NCBI GenBank assembly: GCA_017416505.1
Contig: JAFQCI010000080.1
Coordinates: 1 to 22,562 of the forward strand
Source: Lachnospiraceae bacterium
GTDB lineage: Bacteria > Bacillota_A > Clostridia > Lachnospirales > Lachnospiraceae
Length of the DNA: 22,562 nucleotides
Reading direction: 5' to 3'
Position numbers and translations under genes: made by a program
The notes under the pieces: model-generated
What the model saw: only the letters and a program-made list of their open reading frames with translations
Database searches by the model: none
What the model was told of the DNA's origin: nothing
Shown here: positions 3,259-21,178 of the stretch, piece by piece
How the letters are laid out: every line of letters starts with the position of its first letter
Position numbering within the stretch: the first letter of the stretch is position 1

Positions 3259-3439
3259 TATTAATTTAGTCTAATGTGAAAGTGTTTATGAATATAGGGA
3301 GATTCTTCTGATAAAATAATAATTTCAAATATAAAGAAGGTTATTATAAGAACAACGTATTAGAGTATATGTAAAAAGGCTTAAATATTAAGTTATCAAA
3401 GATGTTATCTAAATAAAATGTTGGAGGAACAAGAGATAA

Positions 3440-4324: not shown

Positions 4325-4372
4325 TAACCATTATACATGGCGGGGCGAAGAAGAGGATTAAACCATGAGAAT

Positions 4373-4415
4373 AGCATTTCAGTAATAAAATTCTGTTATT
4401 ACTGAAATGCTGTTT
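4373..4415 (+). terminator. Strong terminator closing the TIR gene group
   Basis: AGCATTTCAGTAATAA (4373-4388) is perfectly complementary to TTATTACTGAAATGCT (4396-4411), giving a 16-bp stem with a 7-nt loop, followed by GTTTT. It separates the TIR genes from the DISARM-type operon. Confidence 0.8.
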
Positions 4416-4546
4416 TAGATTGATATAAAGCCATTATATAGTGGTAATAGATAGTATTTAGCAGATTGCAGAGGACTTTGATAGAGTTTTGGGGTGACGA
4501 TATAAAATTGATAAGAAAAAATACAAAAACTTATACATAATAAACG

Positions 4547-4575
4547 TTGATGAATTTTCACATTGATGATAAAAT
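4547..4575 (+). promoter_or_regulatory. Promoter of the DISARM-type operon
   Basis: TTGATG (4547-4552) and TAAAAT (4570-4575) are separated by exactly 17 bp, about 48 bp upstream of the regulator gene. It is the only good + strand promoter I see between the terminator at 4415 and the end of the operon at 19897. The regulator encoded first could act here, but no clear operator palindrome was seen. Confidence 0.55.
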
Positions 4576-4623
4576 GGTATCAAAATAAAACTGATATGTT
4601 TTTCAATGTAAGAGGTAAAGTAT

Positions 4624-4890
4624 ATGAATGACGTTTTGAATTTTGTTAATGAAAAAACAAAAATATTAATAGTTTTAAAGGAGAAACAAATTGAAATTGG
4701 TAGACAAAAGGTATGTCCGTTGAATCAACAAGAGATAGCTGCGCTTATCGACTGTGGCAAGGTTAAAACGAATCAGTTAATGAAAGAATTGGTTGAAGAA
4801 GGATATATCCAGATGGCTCATGCAAAAGGTCGCTATATTATTTTAGACAAAGGTTATGATCTGTTGGAGAAAATGTCCCTGTCAGAATAA
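4624..4890 (+). CDS. Winged-helix DNA-binding regulator
   Basis: This is an 88-aa basic protein with a winged helix-turn-helix pattern. CPLNQQEIAALIDCG (31-45) forms helices 1-2, and KVKTNQLMKELVEEGY (46-61) is the recognition helix. MAHAKGRYIILDKG (64-77) is the wing. The usual start ATG 4624 follows AGAGGTAAA. Its size and layout resemble small MarR/GntR-like wHTH proteins that sit first in defence operons and repress them. It is followed by 51 bp before the cytosine methyltransferase start and shares its promoter. It may repress the operon to avoid self-damage before methylation is complete. The regulatory role is inferred from position and fold only. Confidence 0.75.
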   Translation: MNDVLNFVNEKTKILIVLKEKQIEIGRQKVCPLNQQEIAALIDCGKVKTNQLMKELVEEGYIQMAHAKGRYIILDKGYDLLEKMSLSE

Positions 4891-4941
4891 TGAGTCCGGT
4901 TTTTTGGACGGCAAATATGATACAATGAGGTGCAAAAGATT

Positions 4942-6216
4942 ATGAAGACGGGAAGACTAAATTATATAGATTTGTTCGCGGGTGCAGGAGGTCTTTCAGA
5001 GGGATTTATGCAAAGCGGATTTGAACCAGTTGCGCATGTGGAAATGAATGAATATGCAGCAAAAACGATACAAACAAGAATAGCATATTTTTATTTGAAG
5101 AAACATGGAGGAATAGAGAAATATTATCAATATGAGAAAGGTGAAATAACAAGAGAAGAATTGTTACAGTTGGTTCCAGAGCAAGAACTCAAAACTGTAA
5201 TTAATAAAGAGATGTCTGTGGCCACGATTAAAGGTATTTTTGAGAGTATAGATAAAATAATTGCAGAAAAAGAAATAAAAGAAATTGATGTTATAGTAGG
5301 AGGGCCACCATGTCAAGCATATTCTCTTGTAGGACGAGCACAAAGTAGTCATATGCTTGTGGCAATGGAGGATGATCCGAGAAATGAATTGTACAAAATG
5401 TATGTACAGTTCTTGACAAAGTATAAGCCACGGATGTTTGTTTTTGAAAATGTGGCAGGTATTAAAACTGCGCGAGGCGGTCAAATATACAAGAATCTAC
5501 AAATGTACATGAAAAAAGTAGGATATGAAATAGAACCACATGAATTAAATGCTAAAGATTTTGGTGTGTTACAAAGTAGAAAAAGAGTAATTATTGTGGG
5601 CTGGTTAAAAGGAACAGGATATCAATATCCGACTTTTGATGTTGTTGATAGAAATGCTTTGGTTAATGATTTGTTAGGAGATCTGACACCACTAAAACCA
5701 GGTGGAGAAGCGACAGAGTATTATGTTGACGATATGAGAAAAGTAAAGAGTTATGTAAAGAAAAATGGCATTCGTGAAAAAACAGATGTCTTGACAGGAC
5801 ATATTGCTAGACCTCATACAGAACAAGATATAGAAATTTATAAAAGAGTCATTGAATTGTGGTTTAAAAATGAACAACATAAGCGCCTCAAATATGATGA
5901 CTTACCAGATGCATTAAAGAGTCATAAAAATAGAACGTCCTTTGTAGACCGTTTTAAAATAGTTGAAGGGGACATGGATTATTGCCATACTATCTTAGCT
6001 CATTTGTCAAAGGACGGTCATTATTTTATACATCCAGATATTAATCAACATAGGTCGCTTACAGTCAGAGAAGCAGCGAGGTTACAATCTTTTCCAGATA
6101 ATTATTACTTTGAAGGTCCTCGTACAGCACAATTTGTACAGGTGGGAAATGCAGTGCCACCTATGATGGCAAAACAAATAGCAGAAAAGATTAAGGCACA
6201 ATTAACGAAGAAGTAA
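4942..6216 (+). CDS. drmMII: DNA (cytosine-5) methyltransferase, DrmMII-like
   Basis: This is a C5-cytosine DNA methyltransferase of 424 aa. The conserved blocks appear in order: motif I DLFAGAGG (10-17) for SAM binding; motif IV GGPPCQAYS (120-128) with catalytic C124; motif VI FENVAG; motif VIII QSRKRVIIVG; motif IX SLTVREAARLQSFPD; and motif X QVGNAVPP near the C-terminus. The region between VIII and IX (about 225-350) is the target recognition part. I place the start at ATG 4942 because GAGGTG lies 9 nt upstream; the GTG at 4930 would overlap that site. C5 methylases are the modification enzymes of class 2 DISARM, and the DrmABC genes follow in the same operon. The target sequence cannot be read from the sequence. 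The symbol follows the locus context. Confidence 0.85.
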   Translation: MKTGRLNYIDLFAGAGGLSEGFMQSGFEPVAHVEMNEYAAKTIQTRIAYFYLKKHGGIEKYYQYEKGEITREELLQLVPEQELKTVINKEMSVATIKGIFESIDKIIAEKEIKEIDVIVGGPPCQAYSLVGRAQSSHMLVAMEDDPRNELYKMYVQFLTKYKPRMFVFENVAGIKTARGGQIYKNLQMYMKKVGYEIEPHELNAKDFGVLQSRKRVIIVGWLKGTGYQYPTFDVVDRNALVNDLLGDLTPLKPGGEATEYYVDDMRKVKSYVKKNGIREKTDVLTGHIARPHTEQDIEIYKRVIELWFKNEQHKRLKYDDLPDALKSHKNRTSFVDRFKIVEGDMDYCHTILAHLSKDGHYFIHPDINQHRSLTVREAARLQSFPDNYYFEGPRTAQFVQVGNAVPPMMAKQIAEKIKAQLTKK

Positions 6217-6229
6217 AGGAGAAACGCAA

Positions 6230-8821
6230 ATGGGAATAGTAGAAGCTACTTATGCGGAGTTAAAGCAGCAAGAATTGCAGAAAAATCCATATAGTTGCTT
6301 ACAGATGTCGGATATTGATATTAATCCACATCAGGTAGAGGCATTTTCATTTGTGCTTTCATCATTAGAATCAGGTGGTGTCATCCTTGCCGATGAGGTT
6401 GGTCTTGGTAAAACGATTGAAGCAGGTCTTGTAATCAAGTATTTACTACAGAGTGGAAGAGATAAAATATTGCTTATTATTCCTTCTAACCTTAGAAAAC
6501 AATGGCAAGTGGAATTAGAAGAAAAGTTTAATATAGTATCACTAATTGTAGATAGTGCGAATTGGGATGACTATCTGAAAGAGATAAAGAAAAAGCAGTC
6601 TGTAATTATTGTATCGTATCATTTCGCTTCCAAAAGAAAAGAATATTTGGGAAGAGTAGCATGGGATTTCTGTGTATTTGATGAAGCACATAGATTGAGA
6701 AATGTTCATAAAAGTGGTTCAAAAATGGCTAATGGTTTATATGAACTAACGAAAGGCATTCCTAAGATACTCTTAACTGCAACGCCTATGCAGAATACTT
6801 TGCTCGATATGTATGGATTGGTTCAATACATTGATGAACGCATTTTTTATAGCAAAGCCGTATTCTCAGACAAATATATGAGAAATGAGAACTACTTGGC
6901 ACTTAAGGATAGTTTAAGTACAGTGATACAAAGGACATTACGTAAAGAAGTAGCAGAGTATATTCAATTTTCAGAAAGAAAAGGAATGACGATAGATTTT
7001 GTATTGTCACCTTTGGAAATTGAATTGTATGTGATGATTAATAACTACCTCAAAAAAGAAGTACTGTATGCTTTGCCAAATTCACACAGAACACTGATTA
7101 CGTCAGTAATACGAAAATTACTTGCGTCTTCTAGTATGGCAGTTGCAGAAACCTTTAAAGTGTTAAAGGCAAGGTTAGAGATACTAAAGGAAACGACAAG
7201 AAAAGAAACTGCCGATGAAAGTATCGATTTCTTCCTGAGTTTCTTTGATGATGATGAGATTGAAACAGATGGGGAAAGTAAGCAGAATGAATTATACACG
7301 CGAGAAAAGGTGAATGAATTCATTCAGCATGAAATAGAAGAAGTAGAAGCTATTATATATAAAGCAGAAAGTATAAATAAAAATGCAAAGATGACAGCAT
7401 TAAAGCAGGCAGTTGGAAAAGCATTTACATTTCAGAGCGAGGCTGGTATTGCACAAAAGATAGTTATCTTTACAGAGTCTATAAGAACGCAGCAATATAT
7501 ATTTGATGAATTGTCAACTACGGGTTATGAGGGGCAGATTCTCAAGTTTAATGGTAATGCCAATGACAATATTACCAAACAAATTTACAAGGCATGGAAA
7601 GCAAGAAATTATGGAAAATATTTAGGTAGTAGAAATGTTGAAATAAAGAATGCTATTGTAGAGGCGTTTAGAGATGAATATAAGATTCTGCTTGTAACAG
7701 ATTCTGGATCAGAAGGTTTGAATTTACAATTTTGTAATACCATTATAAATTATGATTTACCTTGGAATCCACAAAAGATAGAGCAGCGAATTGGAAGATG
7801 CCATCGTTATGGTCAGAAAAATGATGTTGTAGTAATAAATCTTCTTAATACACAGAATGTTGCAGATAAGCGTGTTTATGAGATATTATCTAAAAAGTTT
7901 GAACTCTTCCAAGGTGTATTTGGTGCATCGGATAAAGCTATTGGACTTTTAGAGAGTGGTGCGGATTTTGAGAAGCGAGTAACGCAGATTTACCAAGAAT
8001 GTAAAACAGCTTCTGATTTTGCTAAGGAATTCAAGGCATTAGAAAAGGAACTTGATAAAAAGAGAAATAAGAAGATGGAACAGTTGAAGAATCTGTTTGT
8101 TTATAAAACAGAGGAGCAAAAAAAACAAGGGTTTAATCAGATTCTGCAGGAAATAGCACAATATGATTTACAATGTGAATATTGGATGAATAAGACCATT
8201 GAACATGGTAAGGTTAGCTATCCTTTATATTATGAAACGGATAGAGTGTTAGATATTCCGGGAATTAAACATGGATATTTATTATTAGGAGTATCTAGCG
8301 TAGATGCAGATATGGGAGAAGTTGTTTTCGAGATAATTGACAGCAAAGGGGAATTGTACGGAGTAAGTGACCTGTTGGCAAGAGAGTTGTGCGATAAGCT
8401 TCAAGATAACGAATTGCAGGATAGGACTCCGGATAACCAGAAGGTTTTATCCTACATAGATATGGTTACAAAGTATATACAGCAAAGCTATATAACTTCA
8501 AAGCAAGAACTAATTCAAAAAAATAAGGATAAGTTATCTAATTGGTTGATGCTCCGAAAAGAGGAATATGTGTTAAGAGCAAAGAATTCTTCAGAACTTG
8601 ATACTATAAAAGAAAAATATACTGCAGAAACAGATTTTAGGCAAAAGATCGCGTTGAAAAAGCAGATGGAGTTGTTGGAGCAGCAACAAAAACAAATGAT
8701 AGAATTGTTCCATGACGAGATGACATCGTTGGAGGCAGAGGCAAATGCAATGCAAAAGGAATTTGAGGAAAGGGTGTTAAAAACATCACAGTTTATAACA
8801 AAGATTGTAATTAAATTTTAG
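6230..8821 (+). CDS. drmD: SNF2/RapA-family helicase, DrmD-like
   Basis: This 863-aa protein is a double-stranded DNA translocase of the SNF2 type. Walker A is DEVGLGKT (55-62), the Walker B box is DEAH (151-154), motif III is TATP (183-186), and motif VI is QRIGRCHRYGQ (about 518-528). SEGLNLQF precedes motif VI. The long insert between the RecA lobes and the charged helical tail resemble RapA/HepA-like proteins. In class 1 DISARM a SNF2 helicase (DrmD) is the class marker; this one lies in the same operon as DrmABC. It begins 13 bp after the methyltransferase, with AAAGGAG as ribosome site. It probably moves along foreign DNA and remodels or loads the nuclease modules. No nuclease motif was seen in it. 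The DrmD name is given by similarity of type and position, not by alignment. Confidence 0.75.
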   Translation: MGIVEATYAELKQQELQKNPYSCLQMSDIDINPHQVEAFSFVLSSLESGGVILADEVGLGKTIEAGLVIKYLLQSGRDKILLIIPSNLRKQWQVELEEKFNIVSLIVDSANWDDYLKEIKKKQSVIIVSYHFASKRKEYLGRVAWDFCVFDEAHRLRNVHKSGSKMANGLYELTKGIPKILLTATPMQNTLLDMYGLVQYIDERIFYSKAVFSDKYMRNENYLALKDSLSTVIQRTLRKEVAEYIQFSERKGMTIDFVLSPLEIELYVMINNYLKKEVLYALPNSHRTLITSVIRKLLASSSMAVAETFKVLKARLEILKETTRKETADESIDFFLSFFDDDEIETDGESKQNELYTREKVNEFIQHEIEEVEAIIYKAESINKNAKMTALKQAVGKAFTFQSEAGIAQKIVIFTESIRTQQYIFDELSTTGYEGQILKFNGNANDNITKQIYKAWKARNYGKYLGSRNVEIKNAIVEAFRDEYKILLVTDSGSEGLNLQFCNTIINYDLPWNPQKIEQRIGRCHRYGQKNDVVVINLLNTQNVADKRVYEILSKKFELFQGVFGASDKAIGLLESGADFEKRVTQIYQECKTASDFAKEFKALEKELDKKRNKKMEQLKNLFVYKTEEQKKQGFNQILQEIAQYDLQCEYWMNKTIEHGKVSYPLYYETDRVLDIPGIKHGYLLLGVSSVDADMGEVVFEIIDSKGELYGVSDLLARELCDKLQDNELQDRTPDNQKVLSYIDMVTKYIQQSYITSKQELIQKNKDKLSNWLMLRKEEYVLRAKNSSELDTIKEKYTAETDFRQKIALKKQMELLEQQQKQMIELFHDEMTSLEAEANAMQKEFEERVLKTSQFITKIVIKF

Positions 8822-8830
8822 GAGGATACC

Positions 8831-10447
8831 ATGGAAAAAAGAGGAAAGCTAGAACTGACATGGGTTGGTAAATATGAAGAAGAAAAATTGGAACCGCGAA
8901 TTTTGATTGAAGATAAATCAAAATCGTATGGAGATCCTGATGCGGAGAATATGTTGATACACGGGGACAATTTGTTTGCACTTAAGGCGTTGGAAAATGA
9001 TTTTGCTGGAAAAATCAAGTGTGTTTATATCGATCCTCCTTATAATACGGGTTCTGCGTTTGAATATTATGATGATAATCTCGAACACAGTATTTGGCTG
9101 GGAATGATGAGAGAACGATTGATGATATTACATACCCTTTTGGATGATGATGGTTTTTTGTGTTGTCATATAGATGATTCAGAAGGAGCATATTTAAAGG
9201 TTTTGTTGGATGAGATATTTGGAAGACAGAATTATTTGACAACCATTTATATTAGAGTTAGATATCCAGAAAAGACATTAAAACAAGATATGGCATTTCA
9301 TAAGGAAATCGAACACATTCATGTATATAGGAAAAGTAGTAATGCTCAACCAATTTTAGATAAGGTGAATAGCGGATTTGAAAAGTTTGTGTATAGAATT
9401 GAAACATTGAAGGATCCCACAAGAACAATAGAGTTGGGCGGAAAAAAAGTAGAAATTTATAATAAAGGTAGTTACAAAATTATTGAGGAAGAAGGGTCAG
9501 AATATGGTTTAAAGGAAATCTGGGCATCGGGTACAATTTTAGATGGTAATTCATCGGGAAGATTTTTCCGGGATTATCTAACTGGAAGATATGAAGAAGA
9601 TGGTCTTGGAGTGTTATACAAAGTGTATGGTATTGGCGATGATAGGTATGATTATAGGTTTTTTACAGGACCGAACAGATTAGGAGCAACTAAAGGAAAG
9701 TATTATCAAGGGGTGCCGTTGGACAAGTTGAATCAAGAAGAATTAACAAAAGAGATTCCTATTAATGGATTTTTCGATTATGCAGCAAATTTTGGAAATT
9801 GTCGACATGAAGGTGGAGCGGAATTTAGAGGAGGAAAGAAACCAGAAATATTATTAAAAATGATTTTCTCACATTTCTCTAAACCGGGTGATTGGGTACT
9901 TGACAGTTTTCTTGGATCAGGATCTTCGGCAGCAGTTGCACATAAAATGAATAGAAAATGGATTGGAATTGAGTTAGGAGATCATGCGTACTCTTTGTGT
10001 AAAAATAGATTAGACAATGTTGTAAGTGGAGAACAAACAGGAATATCTAAGGATGTTAACTGGCAAGGTGGAGGCGGCTACAAATTCTACGAACTTGCTG
10101 AACCGCTCCTTGTTAAGAATTCTACATTGCCGATTTATCAGCTTAATCCAACCTATACTTGGGATATGGTGTGTGAAGCAATTTGTAAGATAGAAGGATT
10201 TACATATGCACTATCAGGTGAGTTTAATGGATGTTCTTCGGAAAACAGATTTATCCATATTACAGAAGAATTTGTGAATACAAAGTATGTGATGTCGGTT
10301 ATGAAAACATTGGGAGAAAGACAGAGTCTACTGATTTATTGTAAGAAGAATCAAGCGGATATGATGTTGCCTGAGAATGTGGAAGTAAAGAAGATACCGA
10401 AAGATTTATTAGAAAAGTGCAATTTTGAAAGTGAGGTGCAGGAATAA
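8831..10447 (+). CDS. Type III Mod-like adenine DNA methyltransferase
   Basis: This 538-aa protein has the layout of a type III Mod subunit (beta class, N6-adenine). The catalytic motif IV DPPYNTG (68-74) precedes the SAM-binding motif I, seen as DSFLGSGSSAAVAH (about 357-370). HGDNLFALKAL (44-54) and KWIGIELG are further family signatures. Residues about 140-320 form the target recognition region, and about 100 extra residues follow the core. The start ATG 8831 follows TTTAGGAGG, the strongest ribosome site in the operon. The stop overlaps the start of the Res-like gene (TAATG), as expected for a Mod-Res pair. In class 1 DISARM an adenine methylase is also present (DrmMI), so this gene may fill both roles. 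Confidence 0.85.
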   Translation: MEKRGKLELTWVGKYEEEKLEPRILIEDKSKSYGDPDAENMLIHGDNLFALKALENDFAGKIKCVYIDPPYNTGSAFEYYDDNLEHSIWLGMMRERLMILHTLLDDDGFLCCHIDDSEGAYLKVLLDEIFGRQNYLTTIYIRVRYPEKTLKQDMAFHKEIEHIHVYRKSSNAQPILDKVNSGFEKFVYRIETLKDPTRTIELGGKKVEIYNKGSYKIIEEEGSEYGLKEIWASGTILDGNSSGRFFRDYLTGRYEEDGLGVLYKVYGIGDDRYDYRFFTGPNRLGATKGKYYQGVPLDKLNQEELTKEIPINGFFDYAANFGNCRHEGGAEFRGGKKPEILLKMIFSHFSKPGDWVLDSFLGSGSSAAVAHKMNRKWIGIELGDHAYSLCKNRLDNVVSGEQTGISKDVNWQGGGGYKFYELAEPLLVKNSTLPIYQLNPTYTWDMVCEAICKIEGFTYALSGEFNGCSSENRFIHITEEFVNTKYVMSVMKTLGERQSLLIYCKKNQADMMLPENVEVKKIPKDLLEKCNFESEVQE

Positions 10448-13173
10448 TGAGTTCAGTGGATAAAATCAAATGGGCTATGAGTTTGCGTGATCCTCAGTAC
10501 GAAGCATTAAAATATTTTGATGCAATCAGTTCTAAGATAGAGTATCGAACTGTTGCCAAGGAAGATGCAGAAAAAATTGCTTCAGAGAATTGCCAAGATT
10601 CTCACAATATATCAGTGGATAAAGAATTTGATTTTCCATCTTTTTGCTTTGATATGACAACAGGTATTGGTAAATCACGTTTGATGGGGGCTTGTATTTA
10701 TTATCTGTACAAGACAAAAGGATATAAGCATTTTTTCATTCTTGCGCCGGGAAATACTATTTATGACAAGATGCGTAGAGAATCTGTGCCTGGACATCCA
10801 AAGTATATGTTTAAGGGCCTTGAAGCAGAAATGGGGAGACCTAAGGTATATGATGGTGAGAATTATTTATCATATCCGGTGAAGTATGTACAGGAGGAGT
10901 TGGTAGTAGAGAAGACTTCGAATATCCAAATTTTTATTTTTAATATATCGAAGATTTTTACTCGTGGTGATTTGGAATTCAAGTTCCACAAATTTAATGA
11001 GAACTTGGGAGGTTCTTTTGCAGAAGTACTTCGTTCCTTCGATGATTTAGTTATCTGCATGGATGAAGCACATAGATATTATGCACCGGCATCAAAAGTG
11101 GCTATTAATTACTTAAATCCTGTACTTGGATTGGAATTTACAGCAACACCTAAGAGTACCAATAAAAATATCATTTATCATTATGGATTAGAAGAAGGAG
11201 CAGGTAAGTTTTTGAAAATTCCTGTGGTTATGGGAAGAACTAACACTGCTGGATATTCGGAAGATGATATTGAAGAAATGAAATTAAAAGATGGAATTAA
11301 GCTTCATGAAAGAAGAAAATCCATCGTTTATAAGTACTGTGTAGAAAATGGATTGGAGCAGGTAAAACCTATTGTTTTAGTGGCATGTAAAGATACAACT
11401 CATGCCAAGAAGATTAAAGATAAGATTGATTCGGACTCATTTTTTGGTGGAAGATATGTTGGAAAAGTAATAGAAATAGATTCTAGTACTAGTGGTACGG
11501 AAACAGAAGAGAATATTCAAAAGTTATTAACAATTGAAAAGAATACGAATCCTATAGAGATTGTATTGCATGTCTATAAATTGAAAGAAGGATGGGATGT
11601 AAACAACCTCTTTACGATTATTCCGTTGAACGCTGCAAAGAGTGACATATTAGCATTACAGACAATAGGAAGAGGACTTAGATTGCCGTTTGGTGAAATC
11701 ACAGGGATTGAAGAATTAGATACGCTTGATATAGTGGCGCATGACCATTACCGCGAGATTATCGATGATATTAAAAATAATCCGGTATTTAAAAAAAGAA
11801 ATCTGGATGAAGAAGAAATTCCTGATACAAAGACTGTGCAAGTTGAACCGGCAGTAGAGAATCAGCAGTTATCGTTGTTCGATGAGGCACTTAAAGAAAG
11901 TGGTGTCAAATCTTATCAAGACTTGAATAATCAAAATGCGTTAGAGAGTCTTTATGAGGAGTATCAAAAAGCATTTGTAAAGAAAGCTACGACAACGAAG
12001 AAAACGGATAAAAATAACGGACAAATGTCTATTTTTGATATGCTTGGAGATCAAGCTACTGATGAAAGTTCAAGTACAAAGGTGACGGCGGAACAACAGT
12101 CTAATAATAGCGGAGTTGTACCTGACGAAATAACAGTAGCACAGCCAGATAATACGACTTTACAAATTGATATTCAGAAAAGTTCAGGAAGTAAAAATGT
12201 ACTTCCTTATGCAAAGCAGGAATTTATCAAGAAAGTCGAAGAACTGAAAAAAGTGGCTATTTCTGTGCCTAAAATTGGAATCAGTTACAGTTCTACTATT
12301 GAATTTAAGCCATTTACAGTGAAGCGAACAATTCAAGATTTTGATATTGCAGCATCACGAATTGAGAGATATGACACCATTAATGACAAATTGTTGCAAG
12401 TGCTTGATGCAGATGCGCTGATTGTTGAAAATCCGGAAAATATGTTGGCAGTTTCACTTTTGGATAGTATTCCGGAATTTGATTCTGACGACGCAGAATT
12501 CATATTAGATGTGGTAGACCAGTATTTAGCTTTGATAGAGGGTTCTGATGAGGATAAAAAGAAGATTGTTAGAAGATATGCAACTGTTATTGTAAATGAT
12601 TTGAGAAGTCAGATATACGCATCAAAAGAAGAAAGTACGGAGTTTGTGTTCAAGGTACAGAAAGATCTTATCGTATTTGGCTCATTTGTAAAAAATATGA
12701 AAGCGGATGGAAGGCTTCATTTCAAGAAGGAAGTGCCTGACAAAAAGAATATCAAGCACTATTTATTCGAAGGATACAAGAAGTCATACTATCCGGAGAA
12801 TGCTTTTGATAGCGATGATGAAAGACGTTTGTCTGTGATTTTGGAAGAAGATGATGAAGTTGTACGCTTTATTAAACCGCCACTTAACCAGTTAGGCTTG
12901 TTCTATAGAGCAGCAAAACAATATAATCCGGATTTTTTAGTCGAAACGAAGGATAAGAAATACATGATAGAAGTTAAGGCTGCTAATCAGACAGAATCTG
13001 AAGAAGTACAAGAAAAGGCCAAAGCTGCAGTGAAGTGGTGCGAGTGTGCATCTAAAGTAGATGCGGATGGTAAAGTATGGGAATATCGACTGATTCTAGG
13101 AGACAAAATTGTTGTTGGAAACACATTAAAATATGTGATTGGCTTAGCGGTGCCAATTTCGGTAGAAGAATAA
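10447..13173 (+). CDS. Type III Res-like helicase-nuclease
   Basis: This 908-aa protein is an SF2 helicase with a C-terminal nuclease. Walker A is TTGIGKS (71-77), a slightly unusual form of the usual GSGKT. The DEAH box is in CMDEAHRYY (about 205-213), motif III is EFTATP, and motif VI is QTIGRGLRLP (about 404-413). After a Gln/Ser/Thr-rich linker (about 470-590), the C-terminus holds PDFLVE followed by YMIEVKAA (about 829-848), matching the PD-(D/E)xK pattern of type III Res nucleases. The start is coupled to the Mod stop. A Res subunit is not part of the DISARM systems I know, so its place between the adenine methylase and DrmA is the oddest feature of the operon. It would cut or translocate DNA lacking Mod methylation. 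Confidence 0.8.
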   Translation: MSSVDKIKWAMSLRDPQYEALKYFDAISSKIEYRTVAKEDAEKIASENCQDSHNISVDKEFDFPSFCFDMTTGIGKSRLMGACIYYLYKTKGYKHFFILAPGNTIYDKMRRESVPGHPKYMFKGLEAEMGRPKVYDGENYLSYPVKYVQEELVVEKTSNIQIFIFNISKIFTRGDLEFKFHKFNENLGGSFAEVLRSFDDLVICMDEAHRYYAPASKVAINYLNPVLGLEFTATPKSTNKNIIYHYGLEEGAGKFLKIPVVMGRTNTAGYSEDDIEEMKLKDGIKLHERRKSIVYKYCVENGLEQVKPIVLVACKDTTHAKKIKDKIDSDSFFGGRYVGKVIEIDSSTSGTETEENIQKLLTIEKNTNPIEIVLHVYKLKEGWDVNNLFTIIPLNAAKSDILALQTIGRGLRLPFGEITGIEELDTLDIVAHDHYREIIDDIKNNPVFKKRNLDEEEIPDTKTVQVEPAVENQQLSLFDEALKESGVKSYQDLNNQNALESLYEEYQKAFVKKATTTKKTDKNNGQMSIFDMLGDQATDESSSTKVTAEQQSNNSGVVPDEITVAQPDNTTLQIDIQKSSGSKNVLPYAKQEFIKKVEELKKVAISVPKIGISYSSTIEFKPFTVKRTIQDFDIAASRIERYDTINDKLLQVLDADALIVENPENMLAVSLLDSIPEFDSDDAEFILDVVDQYLALIEGSDEDKKKIVRRYATVIVNDLRSQIYASKEESTEFVFKVQKDLIVFGSFVKNMKADGRLHFKKEVPDKKNIKHYLFEGYKKSYYPENAFDSDDERRLSVILEEDDEVVRFIKPPLNQLGLFYRAAKQYNPDFLVETKDKKYMIEVKAANQTESEEVQEKAKAAVKWCECASKVDADGKVWEYRLILGDKIVVGNTLKYVIGLAVPISVEE

Positions 13174-13189
13174 AAACGGGAGGCTGTAA

Positions 13190-16100
13190 ATGGCAGATAT
13201 AAAAGATTTTAAACATGCTATTGTACGCCAGAAGATACTGGAGGCTGTTAGGAAAGATTTGATAGGTCCGTCTTCTGTGTGCGAAGAACTTCATGAAGTA
13301 CCGACAAGCAGTTATATTACGGGATTATTATATCCTGCAGATACAGCTGTAACGGAGGATGAGAATTACTTCGATGTAGAGTTTACAGAGAAAAAATTCG
13401 ATGCTGATGGTGAAACTATGGAAGCGGGAATTTTTGAAGAGGAGGAGCCAGAAGATAGATTCAAAGGTGGATTTCAAAAACCGTCTTCAATAGGTATTTC
13501 ATTTTATGTTGCTGATGATGTATCCAAATTAAATGCATACATCAACTGGGGGAAATATCATGCAGAGCAGATCCAAGGTGAAGTTATTGATGGAACTTTG
13601 GAAGAAGATGCAGAAAATAAGAAAAAGAAGAAACATACAGTGTATGTTAGAGAACAAATGCAGGATGTTGTGGAAATTGAATTACACAATGGAAAGCGTT
13701 CTGAAATGATTACTTTAGAGTCCAACAGTAATATATATGTTTATGTAATGAAAATGCAGTTGGATAATAGACATAAAATGATATCTGTATATCTTCACAA
13801 TAATGATAAATCAGATGGTGAAGAGAAAGAATATGAAAAAGTTATGTTCCAAGTAGAAATGCTCATTGCGGATGATTTGATGAATCCAATTTTTGTGCCG
13901 GAATATGTGTGTAGAAAGGTAGAACTTGAGGATGAGTATTTCTATAAGGGACGACCTGTTTATGCAAGAGGTAGAGGATGTGCTGCAACGTGGGATACTG
14001 TGATTGACGAAGTTAACACAGCAACAGTAAGAACGGCATTTATACCAGATTATGAAATTCCAAGCGTAAGCGCACAGATAGAGGAAATGCCAGAGCATGC
14101 ATTTTCTATGTTACAAATGGGTTCACCAAATAAAAAGGCAGAGGTAATAGACAACTTACGCCTGTTAACATCTATGTATGGAAATTGGATTACAGAAGTT
14201 TTAGTAAATGATGTTTCTATGCAAGATGAAAAGTTTAGTGTGACAGGACAAACTATCATAGACAAGTGCAACGATGCAAATCGAAGAATGAATGCAGGTA
14301 TCGACTTGATTGAGAATAATGACAAGGCTTATCAAGCTTTTGTTTTCATGAATCAGGCGATGTATTTGCAGAGAAGTATTACATTATTTTCTAAAGAATA
14401 TGGAAGTGGAATTCCTTGTAATCTGACTGATTTTATGAAAGATATGCCTGAGAAAGGTAGAAAGAAAGACCATAGTGAGTGGAGACCTTTCCAGATAGCA
14501 TTTGTGTTATTAAATTTGTGTGGAATTATGGATGGCGAATCACCAGAAAGAGAAGTTGTTGATTTGTTATATTTTCCTACAGGAGGAGGTAAGACAGAGG
14601 CATATTTGGGGTTGATAGCATTTACGATTGCATATCGTAGATTGACAGCCAAGGAAGAAAATGAATATGAAAAAGATGGCGGAGTGACGGTATTCTTACG
14701 CTATACTCTTAGATTACTTACTACACAACAAAGAGATCGTTTAATGCGACTTATTGTTGCGATGGAACAGTTAAGAGAAAAAAATACGGAGTTGTATGGC
14801 AAGGAAAGAATTACAATTGGATTTTGGGTTGGAGGAAATGTAACACCAAATAAATTTAGTGATTATAGTGATACTGACCAGTTCAAGAAAAAGGAATTTT
14901 TACGCAAGCTGACAAAGCAGATTATCAAGTGTCCTTACTGCGGTAAGCAGATAGAACGTGATGATTACATAATAAATGAAAAAGGTAAATCAGTTCAAAT
15001 TCACTGTTCTGATGAGTTTTGTATGTTTTCAAAGAGAACGGGAAGAACAATTCCTGTATATCTAGTGGATGAAGAAATCTATGCAAAATGTCCAACTGTT
15101 ATTATTTCAACGGTTGATAAATTTGCAAGATTACCTTGGTCCGAACAGGTGGGTTTGTTGTTTGGTAAAACAGACAGATTTTGTTCGAGATGTGGACATA
15201 TCGCGATAGGCGAAAAACATCCGGGTAGACACAACCCAGATGTGGCTGCAGGATTGGATAAGGCTGTTACAACAGAGTGCAAACCATTTTATCCTCCGGA
15301 ACTTATTATTCAAGATGAGTTGCATTTGATTACAGGTCCTTTGGGGACTATTTATGGCGGATATGAAACAGTTGTAGAAGAAATGTGCTGTATTGAACGA
15401 AACGGTAAGAAGATTCGTCCTAAATATGTGGTTTCGACTGCAACAATCAAGAATGCGGGGGAGCAGATAAAGTTTTTGTATGGTAGAAATGATTTCGCGC
15501 AGTTTCCGCCTAGTGGATTTGATACTAGAGATTCGTTCTTTATTCGAGAAGTTGCGTTACCAAAAGAGAACTTGATGGCTGCAACAGAGGAAAAATTACA
15601 GGAATTAATAGCAAATGGGCAGAAGCCGTTCAGACAGTATGTAGGTATTTGTGCAAGTGGTCAATCCGTTAAAACAACGCTTATACGCTTATATTCTATT
15701 GTTTTACAAACTGCATTAGATTTGGCAAAAGAGCCTGAGTTTGAAGATTATATAGATCCGTATTATACCTTAATTGGGTACTTTAACAGTATTCGAGAGC
15801 TTGGCGGTGCTGTTCGTCTTCTTGACGACGATATTGCAAGTAGAATCCGTGTTGTCAAAAATAAATATAATAGTCCCGCACAACGATATATTAGCATAGA
15901 TGGAAAGAAGGAAATTACTTCTCGTATTCCGTCATGGGAGATCGCGCAGGTGCTTGAAAAATTGGCAATATCTTATGATAAGAAAAAGGAGCGACAAAAC
16001 TGTTATGATGTTGTAATTGCAACTAATATGATTGCTGTTGGAATGGATGTGGATCGTCTGGGGCTTATGACTGTAGTAGGACAACCTAAACAGAACTCTG

Positions 16101-16657
16101 AATATATTCAGGCCACAAGCCGAGTTGGGCGTCAGCATCCAGGTATCATTTTTACAGTGTATAACCCATATAGACCGCGAGATTTGTCTAATTATGAAAA
16201 CTTTGTTGGATTTCATTCTCAGATGTATAGATATGTGGAAGGTACAACAGCCACACCGTTTGCGGCAAGAGCAAGGGATAGGGTGTTACATGCATTAGTA
16301 GTTTCATTGCTTCGTTTGCAATTAGAAGAAATGGCAGACAATGGAGGTGCTGCTAATATCAATGAAATCTCTAATGAAGATATAAAGCGAGTAAAAGAAA
16401 TGATACTCGAAAGAGTGAAAGTAACAGCACCTTCTTCTTATGTGGATACAGAAAAAGAAATAGATGAATTTATCAGTACATGGAAGAGAATTGCTAAATC
16501 GGATAAATTATACTATTTTGTTCCCACAGTAGCAGATGATAAAAAGAGACTGCTTACATACTATGGAGAATATTATGGTGATAAAGAAAAGCCTACATTA
16601 AGTTCAATGAGAGATGTTGAACAGTCGTCTACAGTATTTTATTGGGAGGGTGTATGA
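13190..16657 (+). CDS. drmA: DrmA-type helicase of DISARM
   Basis: This is a large SF2-type helicase of 1155 aa. The N-terminal 440 residues are a family-specific region. Walker A is PTGGGKT (463-469). A zinc-binding insert begins CPYCGK (C581, C584) with further Cys pairs (CSDEFC, then FCSRCGH). The Walker B box is QDELHL (708-713) with DELH in place of DEAH, followed by TGPLGT. STATIKNA is motif III and QATSRVGRQ (about 973-981) motif VI. The DELHLITGPLGT block and the VYNPYRPRDLSNYE segment are typical of DrmA helicases. The start ATG 13190 follows CGGGAGG. The last bases overlap drmB (ATGA). With DrmB it forms the DISARM core that binds and handles invading DNA. Confidence 0.85.
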   Translation: MADIKDFKHAIVRQKILEAVRKDLIGPSSVCEELHEVPTSSYITGLLYPADTAVTEDENYFDVEFTEKKFDADGETMEAGIFEEEEPEDRFKGGFQKPSSIGISFYVADDVSKLNAYINWGKYHAEQIQGEVIDGTLEEDAENKKKKKHTVYVREQMQDVVEIELHNGKRSEMITLESNSNIYVYVMKMQLDNRHKMISVYLHNNDKSDGEEKEYEKVMFQVEMLIADDLMNPIFVPEYVCRKVELEDEYFYKGRPVYARGRGCAATWDTVIDEVNTATVRTAFIPDYEIPSVSAQIEEMPEHAFSMLQMGSPNKKAEVIDNLRLLTSMYGNWITEVLVNDVSMQDEKFSVTGQTIIDKCNDANRRMNAGIDLIENNDKAYQAFVFMNQAMYLQRSITLFSKEYGSGIPCNLTDFMKDMPEKGRKKDHSEWRPFQIAFVLLNLCGIMDGESPEREVVDLLYFPTGGGKTEAYLGLIAFTIAYRRLTAKEENEYEKDGGVTVFLRYTLRLLTTQQRDRLMRLIVAMEQLREKNTELYGKERITIGFWVGGNVTPNKFSDYSDTDQFKKKEFLRKLTKQIIKCPYCGKQIERDDYIINEKGKSVQIHCSDEFCMFSKRTGRTIPVYLVDEEIYAKCPTVIISTVDKFARLPWSEQVGLLFGKTDRFCSRCGHIAIGEKHPGRHNPDVAAGLDKAVTTECKPFYPPELIIQDELHLITGPLGTIYGGYETVVEEMCCIERNGKKIRPKYVVSTATIKNAGEQIKFLYGRNDFAQFPPSGFDTRDSFFIREVALPKENLMAATEEKLQELIANGQKPFRQYVGICASGQSVKTTLIRLYSIVLQTALDLAKEPEFEDYIDPYYTLIGYFNSIRELGGAVRLLDDDIASRIRVVKNKYNSPAQRYISIDGKKEITSRIPSWEIAQVLEKLAISYDKKKERQNCYDVVIATNMIAVGMDVDRLGLMTVVGQPKQNSEYIQATSRVGRQHPGIIFTVYNPYRPRDLSNYENFVGFHSQMYRYVEGTTATPFAARARDRVLHALVVSLLRLQLEEMADNGGAANINEISNEDIKRVKEMILERVKVTAPSSYVDTEKEIDEFISTWKRIAKSDKLYYFVPTVADDKKRLLTYYGEYYGDKEKPTLSSMRDVEQSSTVFYWEGV

Positions 16658-18420
16658 TGATATTTAATAAAAAATTAGGGGAAGTTCGCCCCAATCAATT
16701 GATAACTACATACGGACCAGGTGCAATTTTAGATGCAGTAAATGATTCATTGACAGTGTTGGATATTGAATATTGGGATCATAATAACATAGGTAAAGAA
16801 ATTAGAGATGTTAGACTTGCAAATTATATGAATGTTAGGAAGTTTTTTATGCCTAAAACTGGTGGCAAAGAGGATGTTCCAGTAATTTCATTTCCTTATT
16901 ATCATGTGTGTTCAAAAAGTACGTGTAAATTTCTGTTTGATATGAGGGAATACTTCGATACTGAACAGTATAAAAATAATCAAGGAGAAGTGAAATGCCC
17001 TAAATGTGGTTTTCCGGCATATCCATCAAGATTTATTACAGTATGCGAAGATGGACATATGGATGATTTCCCATGGAGATGGTGGGTGCATCATGGTGAA
17101 ACAAGTTGTAAAGGAGATTTATATTTAAAATCAATGGGAAATACTTCTTCATTGGCAGAATTGAGAGTGGAATGTTCGTGTGGAGCAAAAAGACTAATGT
17201 CCGGTGCTATACAAAAGGAAAAGTTTGCAGGTTTATCCTGTTCAGGGAATCATCCTCATAGACCTAATGCAAAACCAAAGATTTGTAAAAAGGCTGTTAT
17301 TCCGAGTCAGAGGGGTGCATCAAACGTGTATTTTGCTGTTACACGGAATGCGATTTCCATTCCACCATGGACAAATCCTATAAATGATATTATGAGTGTT
17401 CAACGTGCAACGATAGAAACGCTAGTAGAAGCAATGGGTGAGGATGCAGGACTTGATTTTGCTTATAATAAGTATTTTGCGGAACGATATACTAGAGAAG
17501 AATTTACAGCTGCATATGAAAGGTTAGGAAAAAATATTAAAGAATTCACAGAATTGAAAGAGATGGAATATGCTGCAATCACACATCACGAGGAAGTTGA
17601 ATATCAACATGATGTGAAGTATTTTAAAGCGGAAGAGATAGATGTTAAAGATAGCCTAAAAGAATATATTTCGAGAGTAATTAAAATACATCGATTAAGA
17701 GAAGTAAAAGTATTACTCGGTTTTACTAGATTAGAAGCACCAGAACCAGAAATTGATGAACAATCACACATTGTAAAACTAAAGACTGGTTCTGGGGAAA
17801 AATGGCTTCCGGCAGTTGAAATCAATGGTGAAGGTGTGTTTATTGAACTTAATAGAAATAAAGTTAATGCTTGGCTTCAGACTGGGAAAGTGAGTGAACG
17901 CTCAAAAAAATATACTCAGTGTTATGCAACATATTGTGAAAAAAAAGGATGGAAGAATTATAAGCCGAGAAATGCGGAATATGTTTTATTACATACATTA
18001 TCTCATATGTTGATAAAAGAAATGTCAATGCAATCAGGATATTCGTCTTCGGCATTACATGAACGAATTTATAGTAGTGATAACATGTGTGGAATATTAA
18101 TATATACAGGAGCTACTGATAAAGAAGGTTCGCTGGGAGGATTGGTTGAGTTAGCTGGTATGAATAAGCTAATACCATTATTGAAAAGGGCTTTAGAAAA
18201 AGGACTCACATGTACCACTGATCCCGAGTGTTTTATGAAAAATCCAACAAGCGACAGATTAAATGGTGCGGCATGTCACTCGTGTACAATGATATCAGAA
18301 ACAGCATGCGAAAATGGAAATCGATTATTGGACCGAGCGTTGGTTGTTCCAGTTCCTGAACATGAAGAAATGGGATATTTTAGAAATTTGGTGAAAGATT
18401 TATGCGGAATACAAGTATAA
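16654..18420 (+). CDS. drmB: DrmB, DUF1998 protein of DISARM
   Basis: This protein of about 588 aa shows the DrmB pattern. It opens with the N-terminal sequence GEVRPNQLITTYGPGAI (about 9-25). A zinc knuckle CPKC follows (about 115-118), then FITVCEDGHMDDFPW and the segment SQRGASNVYF. The C-terminal DUF1998 part carries LLHTLSHMLI (about 445-454) and GGLVELA. A last Cys cluster, CHSCTMISETAC, starts near residue 541. Two starts are possible, ATG 16654 (overlapping the drmA stop) and ATG 16657. GGGAGGG at 16644-16650 fits the second slightly better. The earlier start at 16642 contains the ribosome site itself and is rejected. DrmB has no known catalytic motif and acts as the partner of DrmA. 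Confidence 0.88.
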   Translation: MMIFNKKLGEVRPNQLITTYGPGAILDAVNDSLTVLDIEYWDHNNIGKEIRDVRLANYMNVRKFFMPKTGGKEDVPVISFPYYHVCSKSTCKFLFDMREYFDTEQYKNNQGEVKCPKCGFPAYPSRFITVCEDGHMDDFPWRWWVHHGETSCKGDLYLKSMGNTSSLAELRVECSCGAKRLMSGAIQKEKFAGLSCSGNHPHRPNAKPKICKKAVIPSQRGASNVYFAVTRNAISIPPWTNPINDIMSVQRATIETLVEAMGEDAGLDFAYNKYFAERYTREEFTAAYERLGKNIKEFTELKEMEYAAITHHEEVEYQHDVKYFKAEEIDVKDSLKEYISRVIKIHRLREVKVLLGFTRLEAPEPEIDEQSHIVKLKTGSGEKWLPAVEINGEGVFIELNRNKVNAWLQTGKVSERSKKYTQCYATYCEKKGWKNYKPRNAEYVLLHTLSHMLIKEMSMQSGYSSSALHERIYSSDNMCGILIYTGATDKEGSLGGLVELAGMNKLIPLLKRALEKGLTCTTDPECFMKNPTSDRLNGAACHSCTMISETACENGNRLLDRALVVPVPEHEEMGYFRNLVKDLCGIQV

Positions 18421-19094
18421 AAATAGACTATATTGCAGGTCTATTGGCGGATGCTGTGTTAGATTACAGCATTTGTGGAAATGATAATGTTTTTTCTGAT
18501 ATTAGTTTAGAATTGAAGAAACATTTTAAAAACTGTGACAAAGATGAAATTGCAGATATTATATCATTATGTATAAAAATGTGTAGTGTTGTTTATAACG
18601 ATACAACAGAGTTGGTAATTACGTCACCAGATTCGTTTAAAATGAAGTCTAGAAAGACAAAAGATGTGATTTATTCGCTTGTAAAAGGGGCAAAAAAGAG
18701 CATTACAATAACAGGCTACTCTATATCAGATTATTTCAATGAAATGTTGGATGTTATTATAGATAAAAGTCAACAAGGTGTGTATGTAACTTTGTATGTA
18801 AACGATATAGAAAAACAAAAATCAGTTTTAGGACGAGTTTTGGCATATCAAAACAGATTTTTGAAAGTCTATGAGTATCAAAAGGATACAGAAGACAAAA
18901 TGGCAGCACTTCATGCTAAAATACTTGTTACTGATAAGAATTTATCTTTTGTGTCATCAGCCAATCTGTCTTATCATGGAATGCAGGGCAATATCGAAAT
19001 GGGAATTTTGCTTAAATCAAAAGAAAAAGCAAAACAAATTGAAGATTTATTGAAAGAACTTAGAAAAATGAAAGTGTTTCTTTTATACAATTAG
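18402..19094 (+). CDS. drmC: DrmC, phospholipase-D-type nuclease of DISARM
   Basis: This 230-aa protein of the PLD superfamily has one catalytic motif, HAKILVTD (171-178, H-x-K-x4-D), followed by SSANLSYHG and GNIEMG (186-201). These supply the Asn and Glu/Gly that accompany HKD motifs. A single motif means that a dimer would form the active site, as in Nuc-type nucleases. The N-terminal 95 residues are helical. The start at 18402 lies 19 bp inside drmB, with only a weak GGTGAAAGA upstream, so translation probably depends on drmB. DrmC is reported as dispensable for protection in some DISARM systems. Its length is usual for the family. Confidence 0.85.
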   Translation: MRNTSIKIDYIAGLLADAVLDYSICGNDNVFSDISLELKKHFKNCDKDEIADIISLCIKMCSVVYNDTTELVITSPDSFKMKSRKTKDVIYSLVKGAKKSITITGYSISDYFNEMLDVIIDKSQQGVYVTLYVNDIEKQKSVLGRVLAYQNRFLKVYEYQKDTEDKMAALHAKILVTDKNLSFVSSANLSYHGMQGNIEMGILLKSKEKAKQIEDLLKELRKMKVFLLYN

Positions 19095-19105
19095 ATGAGG
19101 TGAAA

Positions 19106-19897
19106 ATGGAGAAAGAATTTAATTTCAACAAATACTGGGGAAGTTTATTACTTGAACCACATGTGGTATTCAGAAGAAATAGTTATATGTATTGTGTTTA
19201 TTGTGGAGAAAAGGCAGAAACGAGAGAACATTGTCCACCAAAAGCTTTTTTATTGAAACCATATCCAACTAATTTGCCAACTGTACCAGCTTGTACAAAA
19301 TGTAATAATGGTTTTTCGTCAGATGAAAGATATGCAAGCAATTTTATTGAGTGTTTGGCAGAATATTACGAAGACGATAATGTGAATGCTTTTCAAATTG
19401 CAGAAGGAGATTTTGAAGAAGTTCGAAAAGCAAAAGAAGCAGCGAAACTATTTGTTGAACAGCCCTTTTTTGATGATAAGTTAGCCAATGTTTTTAGAAA
19501 AGTTGCAGTTTGTCATGCCGCTTATGAAATAAGTATGGGCTTTCATAGTGAAGAATGGGAAGGGGTTCCAGAAAGAATATCATATACAATCAAGCCGTTC
19601 ATGCCTCAGAAAGAGTGGGAAGGTTTAGAGTATGCAGAAATGATTAACAATGAACCAATGCCGGAAATGGGTTCAAGGGCTTTTAGAAATATTTATGTGG
19701 TTGGTATTAGAGGCTGGAGTATAAAAAAAGAAAAGGAAGTTATGATACCGGTAGTTATGGTTGATTGGTCAGAAATACAAAATGGTTTTTATAAATATCA
19801 AGTTTATTTTAAAGATAATAAAATATGGGTAAAAATGATATTCAGAGACTTCTTATATTGTGAAGTTGTTTTTGCGTCGAAAAACGATTATACCTAA
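19106..19897 (+). CDS. HNH-type putative nuclease at the end of the DISARM-type operon
   Basis: This 263-aa protein has an N-terminal zinc-bound HNH-like module. CVYC (30-33) is followed by EHCPPKAF (41-48), then PACTKCNNGFSSDE (61-74). C30/C33 and C63/C66 would bind the structural zinc, H42 would be the catalytic His, and N67 the second HNH residue. The remaining 180 residues are a predicted mixed alpha/beta domain I do not recognise. ATG 19106 follows GAGGTGAAA; a GTG at 19100 is within that site. It starts 11 bp after drmC and has no own promoter, so it belongs to the operon. It is not a standard DISARM part. It may be an extra effector nuclease or a DNA-binding accessory. Confidence 0.7.
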   Translation: MEKEFNFNKYWGSLLLEPHVVFRRNSYMYCVYCGEKAETREHCPPKAFLLKPYPTNLPTVPACTKCNNGFSSDERYASNFIECLAEYYEDDNVNAFQIAEGDFEEVRKAKEAAKLFVEQPFFDDKLANVFRKVAVCHAAYEISMGFHSEEWEGVPERISYTIKPFMPQKEWEGLEYAEMINNEPMPEMGSRAFRNIYVVGIRGWSIKKEKEVMIPVVMVDWSEIQNGFYKYQVYFKDNKIWVKMIFRDFLYCEVVFASKNDYT

Positions 19898-20539: not shown

Positions 20540-20800
20540 TTTTGTTCCTTCTGCCGTCGGCTTTGCCGCTGACAAGCTATGGATTTTTAGAAACGACGAT
20601 ACAAGGCACATGTATCGAAGGCGATGACAAGCAGAAGCAATTATGATACTTCCGTCTAGTCACAGGTCGAGCAAGTAAATCTTGTCGCAACCAATGAGGG
20701 CGGCTCTGTGAGAATCACGGAGAGGTGAAATTCCTATGAGGTCAAATGCATGACCGGAAGAAATGTTCCCGTATGTCAGGGGTGTCGAGGACGAATTCTG
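20540..20800 (+). other. Hairpin-rich non-coding stretch upstream of the excisionase gene
   Basis: Several stems follow each other. CGATACA/TGTATCG lies at 20597-20617 and CTCTGTGA/TCACGGAG at 20704-20722. GGTCA/TGACC lies at 20740-20755, and CGGAA/TTCCCG begins directly after it. No reading frame covers it. It could be a structured leader RNA or a recombination-control region of the element. No match to a named RNA family is claimed. Confidence 0.4.
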
Positions 20801-21157: not shown

Positions 21158-21178
21158 GTTTCTTGGAAAGGAGCAAGA

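Follow-up and report, generated by a model that had tools for sequence, protein, structure and literature searches.

A DISARM operon with an embedded SNF2-Mod-Res cassette, a candidate separate lineage of the system

DISARM, type III restriction and the operon compared

The defence island system associated with restriction-modification (DISARM) is described in two classes, whose definitions we take from the accessible parts of PMC9252829 and PMC9142583. PADLOC type I comprises DrmA, DrmB, DrmC, DrmD and DrmMI and prohibits DrmE, and type II comprises DrmA, DrmB, DrmC, DrmE and DrmMII (PMC9252829). According to the accessible part of PMC9142583, the DrmAB complex of Serratia is held off by a trigger loop, prefers single-stranded DNA and 5′ overhangs irrespective of their sequence, and shows lower activity when the DNA is C5-methylated. 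For the type III restriction-modification (R-M) enzyme EcoP15I, the portion of PMC4490356 at hand describes that the C-terminal domain of ModA contacts Res and that the target recognition domain (TRD) of ModA reads the site. Here, we analyse a stretch of 22,562 nucleotides from a Lachnospiraceae bacterium (assembly GCA_017416505.1, contig JAFQCI010000080.1; hereafter the window), which is one whole contig of a 4.2-Mb assembly and carries on its + strand, between 4624 and 19094, genes for a small winged helix-turn-helix (wHTH) protein, a C5-cytosine methylase, a SNF2 helicase, a type III Mod, a type III Res, DrmA, DrmB and DrmC. Sequence comparison inclines us, by a small measure, to see in this operon a separate DISARM lineage, in which the DrmABC core and its C5 methylase were joined to a SNF2-Mod-Res cassette, apparently once, and which works as one defence system.

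Pfam, PADLOC and NCBIfam models identify the seven genes from the C5 methylase to DrmC at the places and on the strand that a sequence-only reading of this DNA had given them (Table 1). The locus has DrmA, a separate DUF1998 protein (DrmB) adjoining DrmA and a phospholipase D (PLD)-family nuclease (DrmC), which places it within DISARM, and strictly it fits neither of the two PADLOC types. It resembles class 1 in the DrmA-DrmB-DrmC order and in the SNF2 helicase and adenine methylase upstream, but its SNF2 comes from another branch (223 bits with the class 1 DrmD model NF038317, whose cut-off is 610), its methylase is a type III Mod and not an MmeI/PglX-like enzyme, and Res and a C5 methylase are added. 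Mod had been read as the adenine methylase marker of class 1; this does not hold, because the protein is a beta-class type III methylase and the class 1 DrmMI, represented by the methylase of locus L160, is matched at 150 bits in 0 of the 75 operon loci (at least eight loci are counted twice among them) versus 7/7 class 1 loci. Nor is DrmMI among the PADLOC matches listed (25 of 52 families), where Mod appears as MTase_III. The likeness to class 2 consists of DrmABC and a C5 methylase that matches the DrmMII model; the operon differs in having no DrmE match (0/75 operon loci at 100 bits, versus 11/12 class 2 loci, a set itself chosen by this DrmE) and in a DrmA clade separate from that of the DrmE-bearing loci. 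With neither DrmE nor DrmMI found and a separate DrmA lineage, the proposal of the same reading that the composition is unlike both standard classes, and plausibly an undescribed subtype, stands. Compared with Serratia DrmA, the operon DrmA is of the short type and lacks its first ~130 residues.

By sequence, Mod and Res form the complete type III pair that had been claimed, since Mod has the order DPPY (residue 68), TRD, FxGxG (FLGSGS at residue 360), and a Res with a superfamily 2 (SF2) motor and a nuclease motif (PD at residue 828, EVK at 842) adjoins it. As in EcoP15I and EcoP1I, the two genes are adjacent, the motif order is that of the beta class, Res combines an SF2 motor with PD-ExK and the TRD is exchangeable; here, however, the pair is embedded in a DISARM operon with SNF2 and a C5 methylase. 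Mod matches EcoP15I Mod (4zcf_A) at E 9e-20, and Res is remotely related to EcoP15I Res (4zcf_C, E 4e-8 using the family profile); an AlphaFold model of Res built from 10 close sequences has a mean predicted local distance difference test (pLDDT) score of 45. The same SNF2 branch, Mod and Res families and gene order are found in stand-alone SNF2-Mod-Res loci, for which we found no common name and which occur on plasmids of Salmonella, Deinococcus, Ketogulonicigenium and Aeromonas and on chromosomes, some of them with an HTH gene in front and an accessory gene separating SNF2 from Mod. These loci differ in having no DrmA match, and their Res is 31–45% identical to that of the window over the best matched stretch. 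A further comparison is ARMADA, which in the accessible part of PMC12458937 also unites a YprA-family helicase with a RapA-like helicase and a methylase. In the operon, DrmA and DrmB are separate genes as in DISARM, the methylase is a type III Mod and DrmA passes the DISARM model; the fusion of DUF1998 to the YprA helicase and the PglX-like methylase of ARMADA were not found, PglX and UvrD partners not having been searched for as such.

Has this arrangement been described before? Among the matches listed in open full texts there was no description of a DISARM with an embedded type III Mod-Res, or of a SNF2-Mod-Res cassette, and an earlier mention in subscription papers is possible. Neither arrangement is described in the accessible parts of PMC12458937, PMC9142583, PMC7365801, PMC9716671, PMC9044749 and PMC13335696. 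The active type III system reported in the available part of PMC7365801 lies in an island that interrupts a DISARM, a separate matter from an embedded Mod-Res. Some of the parts have already been seen, since NCBIfam separates 'DrmD_b' and the available part of PMC9142583 states that DISARM may hold DrmMI and/or DrmMII.

Recurrence, co-inheritance and origin of the seven genes

A DrmA query, blind to Mod and Res, was run at four taxonomic levels, in genome sets that were drawn evenly, are incomplete and overlap, and with a first pass that scores few candidates per genome. It matched 13 of 299 genomes in the family set, 10 of 392 in the order set, 8 of 391 in the class set and 18 of 398 in the phylum set. 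Twelve different genomes, that of the window included, hold a DrmA of the operon lineage (at least 48% identity), and all 12 have C5-SNF2-Mod-Res-DrmA-DrmB-DrmC, in one case (G276) with Mod split into two frames. Of the loci with a more distant DrmA, 28 were fetched (matches in G680, G1010, G1028 and G1360 were left out), and none contains the operon Res at 250 bits or the operon SNF2 at 300 bits. A complementary scan of genome contigs with a Res profile gave 242 relatives, of which the best 80 (77 loci) were kept; 60 of these loci lie at 53–91% identity and 17 at 33–35%, with none between. The exact seven-gene order is present in 49 of the 60, seven others are cut by contig ends (L050, L064, L066, L075, L087, L089 and L097) and four depart from it (L055, L082, L102 and L107); median spacing between neighbours across the Res-selected loci is −19 to +11 bases. 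This set was chosen by Res and is blind to members without it; the DrmA surveys are not blind in this way but comprise 12 genomes only. Where the records name a host, it mostly belongs to the Bacillota; the remaining ones are Bifidobacterium (Actinomycetota) and, among the Spirochaetota, Treponema and a further member of the Spirochaetia. In viral contigs, a single-sequence DrmA scan found no relative, but an alignment-based scan did, giving 18 loci of which three belong to the operon lineage. Two of them, L141 and L142, contain the full operon. The third, L143, has C5-SNF2-DrmA-DrmB-DrmC without the usual Mod-Res and, directly before C5 on the same strand (1143–6076 of that locus), another type III pair, made up of a methylase (PADLOC PDLC03645, 510 bits) and a ResIII protein that both differ from the usual ones. 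The operon is no chance juxtaposition, and the view that it is DISARM-related and one conserved unit is upheld by the fixed order in the Res-selected and DrmA-selected sets. An assembly artefact was also considered and rejected, as complete chromosomes, metagenome bins and viral contigs all contain this order.

The conserved unit comprises the seven genes from the C5 methylase to DrmC, 4930–19094 on the + strand, because DNA similarity to ten near relatives (L029, L030, L034, L048, L049, L051, L052, L053, L057 and L097, with L029 and L049 being the same place) begins at 4537–4963 and ends at 19057–19079, except in L097, where the alignment ends earlier as its contig is cut. Between C5 and DrmC, neighbouring genes in the window are −19 to +16 bases apart, and the pairs Mod-Res, DrmA-DrmB and DrmB-DrmC overlap. 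The catalytic motifs checked in C5, SNF2, Mod, Res, DrmA and DrmC are intact, including Walker A and DExH in SNF2, Res and DrmA, in line with the three SF2 ATPases of the earlier reading. Of the up to three nuclease modules it had counted, the PD-ExK of Res and the HKD of DrmC (HxKx4D at 18912–18935) are intact within the unit, and the HNH protein lies outside it. DrmC scores 117 bits with NF038319, below its cut-off of 133.

Co-inheritance was measured on 51 operons, namely the window, 48 of the 60 Res-selected loci, L141 and L142, in which all seven genes reach at least 80% length, broken rows having been dropped. Pairwise distances correlate with those of DrmA at 0.961 for SNF2, 0.951 for Res, 0.979 for DrmB, 0.957 for DrmC and 0.846 for C5. 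Mod is divided in this respect, its C-terminal part following DrmA (0.845) and Res (0.85) and its TRD not following DrmA at all (0.012); the recognition region of the C5 methylase has no comparable break (0.83). DNA alignments to relatives also break at about 9.1–9.9 kb, that is, at the Mod TRD. L053 and L078 have TRDs 86% identical although their DrmA proteins are 50% identical, and among 147 operon pairs with DrmA at least 75% identical the median TRD identity is 18%. For 48 of the 51 operon TRDs a stand-alone Mod matches over at least 70% of the TRD length, and the TRDs of the window and L108 share 66% identity, against 34% between their Res proteins. Because the C-terminal end follows Res, the TRD is swapped and the EcoP15I contacts are distributed in this way, Mod appears to retain its presumed contact with Res and to change its address. 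Catalytic motifs persist through this exchange: the patterns of DrmC (HKD), DrmA, SNF2 and C5 (PCQ/PSQ) are present in 51/51 operons, PD..ExK of Res in 50/51 (L098 has EVR) and DPPY before FxGxG of Mod in 49/51 (L076 and L090 have FLGSA).

Where do the two parts come from? In a tree of 58 SNF2 proteins, the 32 from operons form one clade (support 99) beside 15 from the stand-alone SNF2-Mod-Res loci, to which they are 40–44% identical; the branch uniting the two groups has 87 and no star. Six class 1 DrmD proteins stand elsewhere, 23–26% identical to the operon SNF2 over the matched part, and an approximately unbiased (AU) test rejects a clade of operon SNF2 with class 1 DrmD (p 3.3e-8). SNF2 of the stand-alone branch occurs in nine of 17 distant Res loci and in three of 7 class-survey loci, some of the rest being cut too near for a judgement. 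The stand-alone layout is SNF2-(variable gene)-Mod-Res, for example on a Ketogulonicigenium plasmid, whose SNF2, Mod and Res have the same best PADLOC models as those of the window, and on a Salmonella plasmid. The position between SNF2 and Mod resembles an accessory slot, holding Abi in L164, AIPR and VapC in L165, AAA and DUF4276 in L167, AlbA in L111, AAA in L114 and no gene in L166; in operons L063 and L100 an AAA ATPase gene occupies it. The Res tree sets 13 chosen operon Res, as a single group (support 100/99), against 27 stand-alone Res out of 31; L168, L179, L252 and L255 dropped out, and L169 may be no true relative, given how long its row is. In the tree of DrmA proteins, the 18 chosen from operons form a clade of their own (100) with a long stem. 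A second clade (100), apart from it, unites the eight class 2 loci that carry DrmE, and class 1, which is not one clade and has some unclassified loci among it, is joined to operon DrmA weakly (84). On these sequence relationships, the operon DrmA is a lineage of its own, outside class 1 and class 2. The C5 methylase probably belongs to the DISARM side, since relatives with 55–60% identity sit in DISARM loci without Mod-Res (L145, L238 and L239). The description 'class 2-like core' was rejected, because the DrmA tree separates the lineage from DrmE-bearing loci and the C5 methylase is common to other DISARM loci. The layout in L238 and L239 is C5, a ~860-aa protein, a ~590-aa protein, DrmA and DrmB, with a 684-aa gene after C5 added in L145; in L238, the one locus tested, the ~860-aa protein has no PADLOC match and the ~590-aa protein is NERD/UvrD-like. 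SNF2 and DrmA trees are quick searches with long branches and their roots were not inferred, so that capture by DISARM and escape from DISARM are not distinguishable.

Table 1. Features of the operon and its upstream border in the window
Feature	Coordinates	Strand	Evidence
Hairpin, 19-base arms, 95% complementary, TTTT directly after	4370..4414	+	repeat search and sequence
Small winged-HTH protein	4624..4890	+	Pfam HTH_Crp_2 28.6 bits
C5-cytosine methylase, DrmMII-like	4930..6216	+	Pfam PF00145 210 bits; PADLOC DrmMII PDLC02649 550 bits, residues 9-427 of 428
SNF2/RapA-like helicase, 'DrmD_b'	6230..8821	+	NCBIfam NF038318 'DISARM_DrmD_b' 1313 bits, cut-off 950; PADLOC DrmD 1341 bits
Type III Mod, beta-class adenine methylase	8831..10447	+	Pfam N6_N4_Mtase 122 bits; PADLOC MTase_III PDLC03636 416 bits
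Mod target recognition domain (residues 150-335), exchangeable	9278..9835	+	distance correlation; alignment breaks
Mod C-terminal domain (residues 431-538), co-inherited with Res	10121..10444	+	correlation with Res
Type III Res, SF2 motor and PD-(D/E)xK nuclease	10447..13173	+	Pfam ResIII 70.5 bits; PADLOC REase_III 404 bits
DrmA, short type, YprA-family SF2 helicase	13190..16657	+	NF038325 DrmAS 1272 bits, cut-off 950; solved DrmA 7s9v E 1e-167
Acidic stretch of DrmA	13340..13474	+	alignment to 7s9v; sits where Serratia DrmA trigger loop is
DrmB, DUF1998/MZB zinc-binding partner of DrmA	16642..18420	+	NF038324 594 bits, cut-off 240; Pfam MZB 37.9 bits
DrmC, PLD-family nuclease	18402..19094	+	PADLOC DrmC 301 bits, residues 1-226 of 230; Pfam PLDc_2 61 bits

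Neighbouring genes

The wHTH gene directly before the unit is probably the operon's regulator and probably belongs with it. A match of at least 30 bits is found in 5 of the 75 loci, the window counted, with relatives in L052, L053, L054 and L097, and by eye many operons have small HTH genes of apparently unrelated families directly before C5 (e.g. L048, L056, L060 and L095). At the other end, an HNH-like gene (19100–19897) directly 3′ of DrmC had been taken as part of a nine-gene operon; its protein has no Pfam match at E 0.001 and no solved relative at E 1, and at the thresholds used 0 of the 74 other operon loci match it, so that it is a neighbour outside the unit. The gene is therefore rejected as a component, and of the nine-gene order the seven genes from C5 to DrmC are the part that recurs.

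Upstream, at 1580–4324, lie the genes for a membrane protein (PADLOC PDC-M50A) and for two TIR proteins, one of them ThsB-like, with no ThsA match among the window proteins scanned; 0 of the 74 other operon loci match these genes at the thresholds used, many loci being short upstream. The hairpin in Table 1 lies between these TIR genes and the operon unit and is the probable end of the upstream TIR-gene transcript, a terminator role suggested by its structure; it is absent from the list of a simple terminator scan, and the promoter and terminator scan of the window gave a number of sites not above that of shuffles. Downstream of the operon there is a Tn916-type integrase (21137–22408). L052 matches the window additionally within the integrase gene, and its own integrase, from 22049 after the operon, is 65% identical to that of the window; because this locus too carries such an integrase after its operon, a mobile island is suggested. 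Repeats within each flank, searched separately and not against the other flank, gave no clear attachment sites. A pemK RNA motif (20640–20739, Rfam RF02913, 66 bits) precedes the integrase gene, which is the sole open reading frame (ORF) of at least 80 aa starting within 400 bases behind it on the same strand. At 100–190, ARAGORN places a tRNA-Val of 91 bases, a length unusual for valine, which may be spurious.

Proposed mode of action and its rivals

How might such an operon work as one system? A Mod dimer would mark host DNA at its site with N6-methyladenine and guide Res, and Res would cut unmarked phage or plasmid DNA, making new ends. The SNF2 motor, which also occurs alone with Mod-Res, might clear or remodel DNA-bound proteins for it. 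DrmAB, autoinhibited by its acidic loop, would load on the resulting 5′ single-stranded ends and, together with DrmC, block or degrade the invader, and the C5 methylase would add another mark, less variable than the first, by which DrmAB is kept from host DNA. A sequence-blind end sensor would in this way be coupled to an exchangeable address reader. Alignment suggests that the acidic stretch of DrmA is equivalent to the Serratia trigger loop (residues 176–232 there). Among four DNA-contacting residues tested in the accessible part of PMC9142583, three could be placed, of which K803 and the arginine near 659 are kept; the matching residues are invariant across ten aligned DrmA of the operon lineage.

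Several observations weigh against this reading. Serratia DrmA R810 is not kept in the window DrmA. The overhang left by EcoP15I is two bases long, and the 5′ overhangs made by Res may be too short for DrmAB. The free exchange of the TRD means that DrmAB does not depend on one Mod motif, so that a link would have to run via Mod-Res itself or via DNA ends. Each half, the DISARM core and SNF2-Mod-Res, could be self-sufficient, because DISARM-like loci without the operon Res (0/49 elsewhere at 250 bits) and SNF2-Mod-Res loci without DrmABC (0 of 31 stand-alone loci with a DrmA match) both exist. Some members of the lineage are also incomplete or altered: L055 has a complete C5-SNF2-Mod-Res, a DrmA cut short and then an OLD-like gene, without DrmB and DrmC; L050 keeps Res, DrmA and DrmB, with no DrmC within 2.3 kb behind DrmB; in L082 the C5 gene lies at the 3′ end and is less similar (43%); L102 is a remnant with a Res fragment alone; and L107 is a remnant (7739–11716) in which Res residues 4–369 are fused in frame to DrmC residues 52–226. 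Finally, Mod lies in two reading frames in two of the 60 loci, L080 (= L030) and L088, and for this reason it may be dispensable there or phase-variable. Phase variation, decay or an assembly error are options for these two splits. The L107 fusion ORF, whose Res portion is the motor part, follows a prophage tail gene, and the final ~70 residues of the tail protein are similar to the Mod end (43 bits); the locus is a decayed one, a chimeric assembly or a real fusion.

A more specific form of cooperation, which we advance tentatively, is a programmable DISARM in which Mod-Res is the address-reading front end of a single multi-motor complex, TRD exchange re-targets the whole machine and, as L143 suggests, another type III pair can substitute. 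The opposite possibility, two complete and independent systems in one operon, DISARM (C5 and DrmABC) and type III R-M with a SNF2 helper, which share transcription and transfer and do not cooperate, seems to us rather unlikely. It gains from the existence of SNF2-Mod-Res alone on plasmids and chromosomes, from DISARM-like loci without it, from a TRD exchange that ignores DrmABC and from L055, which retains C5-SNF2-Mod-Res with DrmB and DrmC missing and DrmA shortened. However, the cassette is nested between C5 and DrmA and not placed beside DISARM, order and co-divergence hold across three phyla, operon Res and operon SNF2 are each one group, and L143, which lacks the native type III pair, has another one. 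The sequence-only reading had named an independent movement of Mod-Res and DrmABC as evidence for chance juxtaposition; within the lineage such movement is rare (one replacement, L143, and a few decayed loci), and it is among distant relatives that SNF2-Mod-Res occurs without DrmABC.

Improbable, in our judgement, is that Res was recruited as the effector nuclease of DrmAB, with Mod merely a self-mark and classic two-site type III restriction lost. The co-inheritance of Res with DrmA is about as tight as that of DrmC, L050 retains Res without a recognisable DrmC, and the authors of PMC9142583, in the part available, consider DrmC possibly redundant, which would leave room for another nuclease; yet the C-terminal end of Mod is coupled to Res and its TRD is exchangeable, as expected of an active Mod-Res, and motor and nuclease motifs are intact. 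The first interpretation of this DNA, a hybrid merging markers of class 1 (DrmD, adenine methylase) and class 2 (C5 methylase), now seems hardly credible. Both methylase types are indeed present, NCBIfam and PADLOC name the SNF2 'DrmD' and PADLOC names the C5 enzyme 'DrmMII', but the merger is contradicted by the AU test, which keeps SNF2 out of class 1 DrmD, by the lack of class 1 DrmMI and DrmE matches and by a DrmA outside both classes. This suggests that the database label 'DrmD' covers two branches of different origin, and class labels that use DrmD only may mislead for that reason.

If the slightly favoured reading of one defence system is right, the operon suggests a broadly acting virus sensor equipped with a DNA address reader that can be exchanged, and it would add to the examples of defence systems in which one known kind is nested inside another. 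The lineage would couple the end-sensing DrmAB to an enzyme whose recognition domain is often exchanged and whose remainder is constant. It thereby offers a set of natural variants with differing DNA addresses and a constant machine, which makes the coupling directly testable and bears on how DISARM tells host from phage DNA and on the role of its methylases and extra helicases.

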